Shown: in pieces, positions 34,169 to 52,298 of the stretch
Position numbering within the stretch: position 1 is the stretch's first letter
Layout of the letters: the number at the start of each line of letters is the position of its first letter
NCBI RefSeq assembly: GCF_003259845.1
Contig: NZ_QLMJ01000024.1
Location: 124,001-188,000 of the forward strand
DNA length: 64,000 nt
Source of the DNA: Actinoplanes lutulentus
GTDB lineage: Bacteria > Actinomycetota > Actinomycetes > Mycobacteriales > Micromonosporaceae
Direction of reading: 5' to 3'
The notes under the pieces: model-generated
Database searches by the model: none
What the model saw: only the letters and a program-made list of their open reading frames with translations
Told to the model about the DNA's origin: nothing
Made by a program: the position numbers and the translations under genes

Positions 34169-34216
34169 GATCTTGTGAAGTTCCGCGCGAACGGTGCCGG
34201 GGAACTTCACAAGATC
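34169..34216. terminator. Long palindrome between convergent asd and pyrE
   Basis: An inverted repeat with CGATCTTGTGAAGTTCC at the left and GGAACTTCACAAGATCG at the right, 17 bp perfect, enclosing about 14 nt. It lacks a U-tract on either side but sits exactly between convergent genes. The core GATCTTGTGA recurs in a second palindrome at 49726-49769. Confidence 0.65.
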
Positions 34217-48257: not shown

Positions 48258-49244
48258 GTGACGGAGACTCCGCCTGGTGCCCTGCCCGTACCATACGTTC
48301 CGGGCATGTCCGGATTGTCGGTCATGGCGCGCGGGGGTTATGCAACTGTTTACCGAGCCACCCAGGACTCGGTCGGTCGCGAAGTAGCGATCAAAATGGA
48401 GAACCGCACCCTCGACAACGCCCGCGACCAGGCTCGTTTCCTGCGCGAGGCCCGAGCCGCCGGCCGCATGTCGTCCCACCCGCACGTCGTCGACCTGTTC
48501 GACGTCGGCGTCACGGTCGACCAGCACCCTTACCTGATCATGGAACTCTGCGACGGGTCCTACCTCGACCGCATGCGCGTTTCCCCGCTGACCCCCGCCG
48601 AGGCTCGCGACGTCGGCATCAAGATCGCCGACGCGCTGGTCCACTCACACGCCAACGGTGTCCTGCACCGCGACGTGAAACCGGCCAACATCCTGTACTC
48701 CCAGTTCAACGCGGCCGTCCTGGCCGACTTCGGCCTCGCCGTCCTGGGCGAGATGCGCGATTCGTCGGTCACGCTGGAGGTGCTGACGCCGGCATATGCG
48801 CCCCCGGAGATGTTCCGCCACGAGAGCCCGTCCGGTGCGGCCGACGTTTATGCGCTCTGCGCGACGCTCTACGCGGTGATGAACGGCCGCCCACCCCGCT
48901 GGGCAACCGACCGCAGTCCGAGTCTGATCACCCTGATGGACCTGTTCACCCAGCCCTTGCCGGACATTCCGGGCGTACCGCGCGCGTTGACCGAGGTCCT
49001 GCGTTACGGCATGGCGAACGAGCCCGCCGCACGCCCGACCACCGAACAACTCCGCGACCTGCTGAACAACCTGCAACTCGACCCGAACACCCCGGGCCCA
49101 CCCCCAGCGGTCTACCGCTCCACCCAGAACTTCGTCCCGCCGCGCCCCCGCCCGATCGTCCCGAGCACCCCAACCCGCGAGGACGACACCCCGACCGTGC
49201 ACCAGCGCGGCCGCAAAGGTTTCTTCAGCCGGTGGTTCAACTAA
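48258..49244 (+). CDS. Soluble Ser/Thr protein kinase (STPK)
   Basis: A 328-residue kinase. Gly-rich loop MARGGYATVY (23-32), ATP Lys K46 (VAIKME), HRD-motif H137-R138-D139 with DVKPANIL, DFG at 157-159, and APPE near the end of the activation segment. After the kinase domain (to about 270) there is a Pro-rich tail ending RGRKGFFSRWFN. It lacks the usual TM helix and PASTA sensor, so is probably soluble. I chose GTG 48258 because the fold begins soon after. It follows the cyclase gene by 31 bp. The stop TAA lies at the outer edge of the inverted-repeat island. Confidence 0.9.
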   Translation: MTETPPGALPVPYVPGMSGLSVMARGGYATVYRATQDSVGREVAIKMENRTLDNARDQARFLREARAAGRMSSHPHVVDLFDVGVTVDQHPYLIMELCDGSYLDRMRVSPLTPAEARDVGIKIADALVHSHANGVLHRDVKPANILYSQFNAAVLADFGLAVLGEMRDSSVTLEVLTPAYAPPEMFRHESPSGAADVYALCATLYAVMNGRPPRWATDRSPSLITLMDLFTQPLPDIPGVPRALTEVLRYGMANEPAARPTTEQLRDLLNNLQLDPNTPGPPPAVYRSTQNFVPPRPRPIVPSTPTREDDTPTVHQRGRKGFFSRWFN

Positions 49245-49360
49245 AACCTTCTTTGGTACGCGTCTCGGGGCTGGCCAAACGCAGGCGATGAGCACCGGGC
49301 CTACCCCGCGACGCCCGGTGCCTGGGTCACGGCCGCAGCGCGCCTCTCGCGCCACTGCAT
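49242..49360 (+). repeat. Left arm of a long inverted repeat
   Basis: A 119-bp arm starting exactly at the kinase stop codon (TAAAACCTTCTTTGGTACGC) and ending ACTGCAT. It matches the reverse complement of 50178-50294 with about 106 of 119 identities and two 1-nt gaps by hand alignment, including a 21-bp perfect block (GGCCGCAGCGCG through CTCGCG). A sub-hairpin GCACCGGGC/GCCCGGTGC lies inside. On the minus strand it reads LMQWRERRAAAV. Confidence 0.9.
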
Positions 49361-49728
49361 CAGCCAATCACGCCAGCCCTCATCACTCACCGCCGCCGCC
49401 GAGTCACCCTCAGTGCCTACCGGGGGTTTCGTGGTTCCCGCTTGGTGGGTGGTCACGCTCGGCCTGCCCGGGGTGCGTGCGGTGCGTTTTGGCGGGCGCG
49501 CTTGGTGGGTGGTTGCGCTCGGCATGCCATGGGTGAGCGGGTGCGCGTGCTGCGTGAGTCGGTTGTGGTGGGTGGGTGCCTGGGCAGCAAGAGTCGGCCG
49601 AGGTGGGCGGGCCGGTTGCGGGCTCGGGGCTATCGCGGGCGGTGAGCGTGCCGGCGGGCGGGTGGTTGCGCCCGCTGCTGGGGAAATGTCCTGTTCGGAG
49701 GTCGGGGGAACGGTTCGGCGGCGCCGAT

Positions 49729-49769
49729 CTTGTGAGTTTTTGGCTGGCATGGCGGCGCAAACTCACAAG
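49729..49769. repeat. 11-bp palindrome related to the asd/pyrE palindrome
   Basis: CTTGTGAGTTT (49729-49739) and its perfect complement AAACTCACAAG (49759-49769), loop 19 nt. The preceding GAT makes GATCTTGTGA, also present at 34170-34179. Confidence 0.7.
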
Positions 49770-49830
49770 TTTCGGGGGCGGGCGCGAGTGACGTCTGGTT
49801 TGTCGGATCGCCGGTCTGGTCGGGGCGCGC

Positions 49831-49950
49831 GAGCCGTAGCTCAGACCTGTTATGGGGCGGCGATGACATGTCTGAGCTACGGCTCGGGCCGCCCGGCCGT
49901 CGTTCAGTCACGTTATGAGTGTGCGATGGCGTGTGTGAGCTACGGCTCGG
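49831..49950. repeat. 16-bp palindrome with a duplicated half
   Basis: GAGCCGTAGCTCAGAC (49831-49846) pairs perfectly with 49870-49885 around a 23-nt loop. The loop plus 3' arm is repeated imperfectly at 49913-49950 (TTATG...GCGATG...GAGCTACGGCTCGG), offset by 64 bp. Confidence 0.75.
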
Positions 49951-50177
49951 CTTGCTCGGCGTCGCGCATTGCGCCGCAGGGTGCCCACGGCCACGTGTGC
50001 TCCGGCGCACCGTGTGCCCTCGGCTACGTGCCCTGGCTACGTGTGCCCGGGCGCACCGTGTGCCCTGGCTACGTGGGATCCAGGCACACCGTGTGCCTTC
50101 GGCCTGCTGAACGTCCGTGGCGGCGGTGCGCCCTCGGTGACCGGATTTGGACAGGGGGTGGGGTGGTGGAGTGGGCA

Positions 50178-50294
50178 ATGCAGTTGCGCGAGAGGCGCGC
50201 TGCGGCCGTGCGCACGCACGGGCGTCGCGGTGTAGGCCCGGTGCTCATCTGATGCGTTTGGCCAGCCCCGAAACGCGTACCGAAGGAGGTTTTA
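50178..50294 (-). repeat. Right arm of the long inverted repeat
   Basis: A 117-bp arm, inverted relative to 49242-49360 and 89% identical by eye. It begins exactly at the TAA stop of the carboxylase gene. On the plus strand it reads AMQLRERRAAAV, matching the translated left arm. Two bases shorter than the left arm, near the sub-hairpin. Confidence 0.9.
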
Positions 50295-52298
50295 TTCTGG
50301 GTCCAGGACCGCTAGTAGTTCGCCCATGTCTACTTCGGAGCCCGGGTGGACCGGCAGGGAAGAGACCACGCCCGCTGAGGGTGCGTGTACCGGGTGTTCG
50401 AGCTTCATCGCCTCCAGCGTGAGCAGCAATTCGCCTGCTCGGACGCGCTGGCCGGGGACCACCAGGATGCGGCGGACGGCGCCGGGCAGGGGGGCGATCA
50501 GGGAGCTCTCGGTGGCTTCCGGGGCGGGTAGCGGGAAGCGGGAGATCTCGCGGAGGGTGACCGAGCCCTCGGGACTGTCCACATATGACACGTCGTTCAC
50601 GCGGTGTACCAGGACGGCCAGGCGGATGCCCTGCACGTTGAGCACCACACGGTCCGCGGAGGCCTGGACGATCACGATGGGTGGGTGTTCGTCGGCTACC
50701 GGGGCTTGACCGAGACCGGCCAGGTCGAGCTCCTCCGGGTCCACCGCTCGGACCCACCAGCCGGCCAGCGCGCCGTGGCGGTTCATGCGGTAACCGACCT
50801 CTACCGGACCGGTCGGGCCGTCGTAGACCGCGGTCTGTGAGCCGGAGGGTACGTTGCGCCAGCCTGAGGGCAGTGAGTTCAGCACCGGGGCGGATGCTCG
50901 GCGGGCTGCCGCACCGGCCAGGGCGGCGGCCAGGCAGGACAGGCGGACCGCGTCTACCGATGAAAGCAGGGGCGCGAAGACCTCGGGGTGCCGGTCCAGG
51001 AAACCGGTGTCCAGGTCGCCGGCGCGGAACGAGTGGTGGCGCAGGGCGCGGACCAGCAGGTCGCGGTTCGACACGACGCCGTGGATCTGGGCTCGGGCCA
51101 GCGCGGACGCCAGCATCCGGGCGGCTTCCTGGCGGCTCGGGGCCCAGGCGATCAGTTTCGCCAGCATCGGGTCGTGGTGCATGCCGATCACCGAGCCGTC
51201 CGCGACGCCGGCGTCCAGGCGCAGGCCGGGCTGGGCGAGCGGGCGGAACGTGCCGGCGATGTCCGGCACGGCGAACCGGTGCAGGGTGCCGGCGGCGGGC
51301 AGCCAGGCGTACGCCGGATCCTCGGCACAGATGCGCACCTCGATGGCGTGCCCGCGGATCGGCGGCGGTCCGGGCATCGGCAGGCTGCCGCCCTCGGCCA
51401 CCAGCAGCTGCAGGCGGACCAGGTCGTAACCGGAGACGCACTCGGTGACCGCGTGGTCGGCCTGCAGCGTCGGGGTGAGTTCGAGGAACCAGAACTTGCC
51501 GTCCTCGTCGAGCAGGAACTCGACGGCGCCGGCACCCACATAACCGAGGGCGCGGACCACCACGATCGCGGCCCGGCACAGGTCTTCGCGCAGGGCGGCG
51601 TCGACCGCCGGTGACGGGGTCTCCTCGATGATCTTCTGGTATCGGCGCTGTACCGAGCATTCGCGCTCGCCGAACGGGACCACCGAGCCCTGCGCGTCGG
51701 CGAGGATCGGGACTTCAATGTGGCGGACGTTGGTGACGTACGGCTCGCAGTAGACGTCGCCGCCGACCTCGCGACGGGTGGAGGCGACCGCCTCGGCGAG
51801 CGTGGAGGCGTCGCGGACCACGCGCATCCCGATGCCACCGGAGCCGGTGGCCGGCTTGATCAGCACGGGGAAGCCGGGCACCGAATCCGGGTCGGTGAAG
51901 GTCGGCAGCACCGGAACCCGGGCCTCGGCGACCATCTGCTTCATGTCCGGCTTCACGCTCAGGGCACGCAGCGTCGCCGGGGTCGGACCGACCCAGATCA
52001 TCCCGGCGTCGACGACGGCGGCCGCGAAGTCCGGGTCCTCGGCGAGCATGCCGACGCCCGGGTGCACGGCGTTCGCCCCGGACCGCTGCGCGGCCGCGAG
52101 AAGCGCTTCGGTACGGAGATAAGTACTGGCCGGAGTACTACCCGGCAGGTGGACCGCATAGTCGGCCTCGTCGACGTGTGGCGCCGAGGAGTCGACGTCG
52201 GAGTAGACGGCGACCGTCTCGATGCCGACCAGCCGGCAGGTGGCGAACACCCGGCGGGCGACCTCTCCTCGGTCGGCCACCAGAAGTCGTCGAATCAC
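50292..52298 (-). CDS. Degenerate acyl-CoA-carboxylase-like alpha subunit (biotin carboxylase + BCCP)
   Basis: A 668-residue protein with a biotin-carboxylase ATP-grasp domain (1-450), a linker, and a C-terminal biotin-carrier domain with the biotinylation site EAMKLEH (Lys about 632). K116, K148, the loop ATGSGGIGM and ERECSVQRRYQKIIEE are kept. The catalytic strand normally reading EMNxRxQVEH is here E273-L-T-P-T-L-Q-A-D-H: the metal-binding Asn is Thr275, the conserved Arg is Thr277 and the catalytic Glu is Asp281. RINAEDP is RICAEDP. ATP-dependent biotin carboxylation may therefore be lost or altered. GTG 52298; 11 bp after the partner gene. Confidence 0.85.
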   Translation of the reverse strand: MIRRLLVADRGEVARRVFATCRLVGIETVAVYSDVDSSAPHVDEADYAVHLPGSTPASTYLRTEALLAAAQRSGANAVHPGVGMLAEDPDFAAAVVDAGMIWVGPTPATLRALSVKPDMKQMVAEARVPVLPTFTDPDSVPGFPVLIKPATGSGGIGMRVVRDASTLAEAVASTRREVGGDVYCEPYVTNVRHIEVPILADAQGSVVPFGERECSVQRRYQKIIEETPSPAVDAALREDLCRAAIVVVRALGYVGAGAVEFLLDEDGKFWFLELTPTLQADHAVTECVSGYDLVRLQLLVAEGGSLPMPGPPPIRGHAIEVRICAEDPAYAWLPAAGTLHRFAVPDIAGTFRPLAQPGLRLDAGVADGSVIGMHHDPMLAKLIAWAPSRQEAARMLASALARAQIHGVVSNRDLLVRALRHHSFRAGDLDTGFLDRHPEVFAPLLSSVDAVRLSCLAAALAGAAARRASAPVLNSLPSGWRNVPSGSQTAVYDGPTGPVEVGYRMNRHGALAGWWVRAVDPEELDLAGLGQAPVADEHPPIVIVQASADRVVLNVQGIRLAVLVHRVNDVSYVDSPEGSVTLREISRFPLPAPEATESSLIAPLPGAVRRILVVPGQRVRAGELLLTLEAMKLEHPVHAPSAGVVSSLPVHPGSEVDMGELLAVLDPE

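Follow-up and report, generated by a model that had tools for sequence, protein, structure and literature searches.

The window examined, meaning the whole stretch of 64,000 nt that was analysed, comes from an Actinoplanes with a draft genome of 9,887,594 bases in 51 contigs. A Ser/Thr protein kinase gene (48396–49244, plus strand; Pfam Pkinase, E = 7.5e-33) and a gene for a biotin carboxylase with a biotinyl domain (50292–52280, minus strand; Pfam Biotin_carb_N, Biotin_carb_C and Biotin_lipoyl) converge on a space of 1047 bp. The closest named relatives of the carboxylase are those of Actinoplanes sp. DH11 (93%) and A. aureus (90%). No gene was placed in the intergenic space by a codon-usage gene caller, and three long ORFs within it gave no Pfam match; the caller was our own script, trained on 36 ORFs, and the gene-end counts given below are thus estimates.

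The space is bracketed by two inverted arms, and the borders of the resulting island coincide with the gene ends. The left arm (49242–49360, plus strand) has the kinase TAA at 49242–49244 as its first codon, and the right arm (50178–50294, minus strand) has the carboxylase TAA at 50292–50294, as described in an earlier note on this DNA. The arms are real: 107 of 119 alignment columns are identical, and the local score of the pair is 174–175, whereas 1000 dinucleotide shuffles never exceeded 35. The identity of 90% agrees with the 89% noted earlier, but by eye the alignment contains an uninterrupted identical stretch of up to 25 bp, slightly more than the 21 bp given there. Alignments of copies place a conserved core, GGTACGCGT, at 49255–49263 (plus strand) in the left arm and at 50273–50281 (minus strand) in the right arm, and GTACG is invariant across 21 aligned copies of the element represented by the two arms.

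A coding or structured-RNA origin had been suggested for the arms, as both encode the peptide MQxRERRAAAV. The peptide is present in both, but it is not a conserved translation: the full form occurs in only these two of 21 copies in the genome, stops are found in many frames of the copies, and the peptide is a product of conserved nucleotides. A coding origin of the arm was rejected on these grounds, and a protein-coding island was likewise rejected on the gene calls, the Pfam results and the unconserved peptide. The predicted folding of a single arm does not surpass that of shuffles (four arms gave z values of −0.83 to +0.20), no covariation was seen in the arm alignment (no pair changed on both sides), and an Rfam search returned two matches, both far under the gathering score; a structured-RNA arm was ruled out accordingly. 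A scan of the island for classical terminators and promoters found none, with 0 intrinsic terminators (GC-rich hairpin plus T run) against 0.9 expected in shuffles.

The interior is repeat-rich and holds no recognisable gene, in agreement with the earlier note. From left to right it carries two tandem 60-bp units that are 73% alike (49413–49532, repeat family D2); near the island centre, an imperfect copy of a dispersed palindrome of about 45 nt, GATCTTGTGAGTTT...AAACTCACAAG (49726–49772; folding z −4.6 on the plus and −4.0 on the minus strand); a dispersed repeat of about 120 bp made of two 63-bp units (49829–49949), which contains a 55-nt palindrome, GAGCCGTAGCTCA...TGAGCTACGGCTC (49831–49885; z −6.9 on the plus and −4.9 on the minus strand); and three short repeats of the form GGCGCACCGTGTGCC (50004–50103, repeat family D4). 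Strong hairpins at 49722–49780 and 49815–49962 fold far better than shuffles yet fail the terminator scan.

Parts of this filling are dispersed in the host genome. The 120-bp repeat has at least about 40 related places (40 of 393 candidates were scored), the 54–55-nt palindrome has 27 perfect-ended copies including that of the window (one copy is 41 nt), and the 45-nt palindrome has 41 perfect-ended copies, the imperfect one of the island not being among them. Fifteen of the 41 short and 25 of the 27 long palindromes were classed by location, two long ones being cut by contig ends, several short ones sharing a gap, and one of each kind having only one neighbouring gene placed. None of the 15 short or 25 long palindromes lies inside a called gene, and convergent gaps hold 10 of the 15 and 12 of the 25; in the sample, convergent gaps make up 73 of 404 gaps overall and 10 of 37 gaps longer than 400 bp. 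By eye, the inner stem of the 54–55-nt palindrome varies while pairing is kept in many copies. The palindrome ATCTTGTGA...TCACAAGAT (window 34170–34215; 41 places) has a length of 45 nt in all but one of its 41 copies, and in all 15 copies examined its positions 17 and 29 are mismatched, always as G/G or C/C.

The arm itself is a member of a genus-specific extragenic repeat, which is named here the Actinoplanes gene-end element. It is about 110 bp long and consists, in fixed order, of a pyrimidine-rich head, the GGTACGCG core, CCGCGAC and GGCCGCnGCGCGCC blocks. Degenerate copies sharing these blocks were found when the host genome was searched with one arm, and a profile search gave at least 22 near-full-length copies at E<1e-5, nine of them seeds of the model; this number is a lower bound, the first profile having been built from ten copies (nine from this genome, one from A. 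aureus) and 150 of 26319 first-look candidates having been scored. With a second profile, built from 21 copies of this genome and run on 80 genomes with 43 candidates scored per genome, the element was matched at E<=0.001 in 29 of the 48 genomes sampled from the genus, and in none of 32 others. It is called unnamed here on the outcome of a literature search, mainly of openly readable full texts, in which no title described such a repeat; the word Actinoplanes is absent from the main text of PMC12306157 and PMC3733652.

A 15-mer of the arm, CTTCTTnGGTACGCG (for example at window 49248, plus strand), occurs at 161 genome sites with at most one mismatch, against 4 for its reversed control, and is far commoner than the full arm as found. 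Thirty sites are perfect: 9 follow a stop codon, 6 precede a start on the opposite strand, where AAGAAGG resembles a ribosome-binding site, one does both, and 16 do neither. The short core alone was considered as a 3′-end signal and rejected as too simple, these 16 of 30 sites fitting neither gene context.

Copies of the full element are placed by gene ends. In the host genome 18 of 22 heads lie at the end of a gene on the same strand and 5 of 22 tails at the end of a gene on the opposite strand; in five other genomes the figures are 28 of 40 and 9 of 40. For the remaining heads (4 of 22 and 12 of 40) our gene caller found no gene end. The view of the earlier note that each stop codon is followed by one arm of an apparently non-coding 3′-end repeat with copies elsewhere is therefore upheld. 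The element is not a universal gene-end motif, a candidate ruled out on two counts from 464 kb (the window and 20 arbitrary stretches): the core was absent from the list of top k-mers at 425 gene ends, and strong arms occurred in only 1 of 19 convergent gaps of 120–2500 bp, that of the window.

Most copies stand alone as single arms, and some others form facing pairs around a junction. A sample of 22 convergent gaps of 300–2500 bp in the host genome was drawn from the window, from 20 stretches at arbitrary positions and from 20 others picked for holding a copy of the repeat; arms at both ends were seen only at the window junction (score 175) and at a second island (score 142), and the remaining 20 gaps gave end-versus-end scores of 14–31. 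The second island, flanked by what we take from their sequences to be ctaA and an ATP-grasp-like gene, resembles that of the window in having about 1 kb between facing arms, and by eye its middle also holds degenerate copies of the longer palindrome. Here the right-hand gene runs 34 bases into the arm and stops inside it. An arm can thus contain a stop codon, as at ctaA, but the earlier idea that arms supply stop codons is not supported at the carboxylase: its orthologues end at the same stop position with or without arms following, so the arms are not the source of the stop there.

Facing copies are found in other genomes as well, where an inverted partner lies downstream of 7 of the 40 copies. 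A gene end was found on both sides of three of these seven pairs, on one side of one and on neither side of three. Three pairs in genome G015 are compact, spanning 219–245 bp with their arms no more than about 35 bp apart, and are in effect long imperfect palindromes. A further facing pair was seen in genome G060 (L298/L415); it measures 482 bp from outer end to outer end, its arms agree at 107 of about 124 bases, and neither flank has a gene end according to the gene caller.

These data bear on the possibility, raised in the earlier note, that the whole island is a foldback or MITE-like element, its arms being the terminal inverted repeats of a non-autonomous transposon inserted between the two genes. 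Inverted ends that flank a non-coding middle, arm copies elsewhere in the genome and the 117-bp arm-free junction of the close relative DH11 would all be expected of such an insertion. However, most copies are single arms oriented by a gene (18 of 22 heads), the three island ORFs gave no Pfam match, and a search of the host genome with the whole island found no second full-length copy among the 40 of 393 candidates scored. The ctaA island has arms and degenerate palindromes in common with that of the window and nothing more, and inverted ends of species-specific sequence occur at the same junction in about half of the species tested (below). No second copy with common ends and a common interior having been found, the element is not classed as a MITE, and insertion of arms and interior as a single unit is unlikely.

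The carboxylase gene was found in 60 of 60 genomes, with loci given for 30. Of these 30 junctions, 3 had no kinase gene within reach and 8 more had a gap of less than 100 bp, and these were left out of the arm comparison. The kinase and carboxylase genes overlap by 24 bp in many Paractinoplanes and are separated by gaps of 10 to 3170 bp in species nearer to that of the window. Inverted ends scoring above the best of 50 shuffles were present in 10 of the 19 junctions whose gap is 100 bp or longer, that of the window included, or 9 of 18 other species; two of the ten positives are narrow (32 vs 29 and 39 vs 32), and 9 of the 19 are negative. In all ten positives GTACG lies near the start of both arms, a regularity that is partly built in, the GTACG nearest to the alignment start having been chosen by the script; the rest of the arm is species-specific. 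The arms of the window are therefore not shared by all relatives, nor are they without copies elsewhere, these being the two findings by which the earlier note would have recognised an old local duplication.

Junctions without arms occur among the relatives, and no target-site duplication was assigned at the island, whose borders are gene ends. The two relatives with the closest carboxylases (94% and 93%) have no paired arms at this junction, one of them having a single core-like head, and given their lack of the pair, that of the window may be recent rather than inherited. At the ctaA junction, for which the comparison covers 23 of the 30 junctions, arms were present in two of those 23, that of the host and that of genome G069.

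The absence of the pair in these two relatives would also suit an old local inverted duplication, in which the arm was copied once across this junction and has decayed since. The same is true of the closeness of the two arms, which score 175 against each other and at most 68 against any other compared junction end of the host genome (at most 53 for the ctaA arms); when the whole genome was searched by BLAST with one arm, the partner gave 154 bits and the next copy 53.6. A facing arrangement is, however, also found at ctaA, at the same junction of other species and at other loci of other genomes, and one old event cannot yield species-specific arms that match each other within several species. 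An old duplication is thus very unlikely to be the explanation, although the pair of the window may have arisen by a recent local event inside the repeat family.

The matching of arms within species was quantified by scoring every carboxylase-side arm against every kinase-side arm. The mean score was 60.8 within species and 21.8 between species, a difference never reached in 20000 permutations. For 9 of the 19 rows and 8 of the 19 columns the best match was the own partner, so that about half of the species show strong within-species matching and the others little or none. Among the exceptions, the carboxylase-side arm of genome G010 scores at least as high against the kinase-side arm of G076 as against its own partner, and the best match of the carboxylase-side arm of A. 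aureus is the carboxylase-side arm of G069.

A clear order of likeness emerged when the host and G069 were compared at both junctions. Partner arms score 129–177, and arms at the other junction of the same genome score 37–48 in the host and 86–96 in G069. When the junction is the same and the genome differs, arms score 23–34 (carboxylase) and 20–24 (ctaA), no higher than arms differing in both junction and genome (18–29). The genome level was also evident in 61 copies from six genomes, for which the nearest non-partner copy came from the same genome in 54 cases, whereas 5000 label shuffles reached at most 29; this comparison leaves out the two pairs of the host, and a few of the copies lie only some kilobases apart. 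For four of the other genomes the copies had been selected by a model of host-genome copies, which should weaken, and not create, genome-specific clustering; the two copies from G060 were selected with an arm of that genome. In the part of G060 that was searched, a distant copy is 88% identical to the carboxylase-side arm, against 86% for the partner. With partners most alike, then copies of the same genome, and the orthologous foreign arm least, the order indicates what seems to be concerted turnover and not a single foldback insertion. The pattern is that of a repeat which would keep spreading within each genome, its facing copies being additionally matched in several cases, not in all.

Complementarity maintained in several species despite sequence turnover might instead reflect selection for long-range pairing, the arms being kept complementary for folding of the strand or transcript into a giant hairpin or cruciform and not by conversion; the compact pairs, as long imperfect palindromes, are in line with this. 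Intrinsic termination requires a hairpin at the polymerase exit channel, which two arms separated by about 800 bp cannot provide, and this separation speaks against such a role for the island. Partnerless single arms are commoner than pairs, and selection on pairing does not explain the genome-by-genome likeness of non-partner copies, leaving this alternative improbable.

Concerted turnover of a repeat is the basis of the explanation preferred here. The family, the orientation of its heads, the pairing, the hierarchy of likeness and the differing junction lengths are all evident at the level of the DNA. The island is probably an opened-up facing pair of the genus-specific gene-end repeat, an account that includes the following turnover and module reading. 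Copies would spread inside each genome by some copying route, and facing arms would be kept alike by gene conversion or by template switching across the palindrome. The founding form would be a compact facing pair at a convergent junction, and its middle would have expanded to about 800 bp as tandem repeats and further extragenic palindromes accumulated, additions that may be tolerated between convergent gene ends. The paired form may act in both directions as a gene-end module, terminating or protecting the transcripts of the two convergent genes; such a role fits the placement of the element and is the least sure part of the account.

The nearest known counterparts are the REP and BIME sequences (GTAG- and CGTC-tagged palindromes), which are extragenic, dispersed, often near the 3′ ends of convergent genes and often dimers, as described in PMC3733652. 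The Actinoplanes element is likewise extragenic and dispersed, with 18 of 22 heads in the host and 28 of 40 elsewhere at the 3′ end of a gene, and the 45-nt and 54–55-nt palindromes of the filling are alike in form. An origin as a REP or BIME moved by a REP-associated Y1 transposase (RAYT) would account for the placement and for the facing pairs, both described for REPs in that text (PMC3733652). In contrast to a palindrome of 20–40 bp, however, the arm is about 110 bp long and has no conserved hairpin, its pairs bracket up to about 1 kb, and a search of the 51-contig draft for Y1_Tnp (PF01797) gave 0 matches while 5 of 14 control genomes were positive. A RAYT-driven REP was rejected on the absent PF01797 match in the host genome, and since neither a short-hairpin unit nor a RAYT was found when each was tested, the element is not classed as a REP; this origin is extremely unlikely. 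The long terminal-inverted-repeat families around RAYT genes, described in PMC3733652, are similar in being moderately abundant inverted-repeat families, but differ in that the host genome has no Y1 transposase match and in that single copies of the element are oriented by gene ends.

The MITE and foldback elements, with which the island shares inverted ends around a non-coding middle, differ in the points given above: the commoner single arms, the orientation by gene ends and the lack of a second copy with the same interior. In Neisseria and Haemophilus, pairs of uptake sequences are used as terminators, a short dispersed motif sometimes standing as an inverted pair after stop codons. The gene-end element is also dispersed and sometimes forms an inverted pair after stops, but the arm is longer and much rarer, the two arms can be distant, and the sequence varies by species.

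The findings might point further, to a self-homogenising system of gene-end DNA in Actinoplanes, with copying directed preferentially to 3′ ends without a known REP transposase, matched facing copies, a replaceable two-way end module and species dialects at the same junctions; this broader proposal is tentative, and on balance we would not expect all of it to hold. The element itself provides a case of concerted evolution at two levels, the pair and the genome, in bacterial non-coding DNA. The spread, homogenisation and transcript-end role of extragenic repeats become testable in a culturable, industrially used genus, and if the module does end transcription, it would bear on how convergent genes are terminated in GC-rich actinobacteria without classical terminators.

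A single junction followed across many species provides a natural series that extends from overlapping genes to a 1-kb island. Other kinds of sequence were observed by eye at two of its members. The 117-bp junction of Actinoplanes sp. DH11 (L084, 7975–8091) is without arms and contains about four tandem 29-bp units, which run into the end of the kinase gene. In A. flavus the junction (L093, between 7974 and 8788) holds a frame resembling a small lipoprotein gene.
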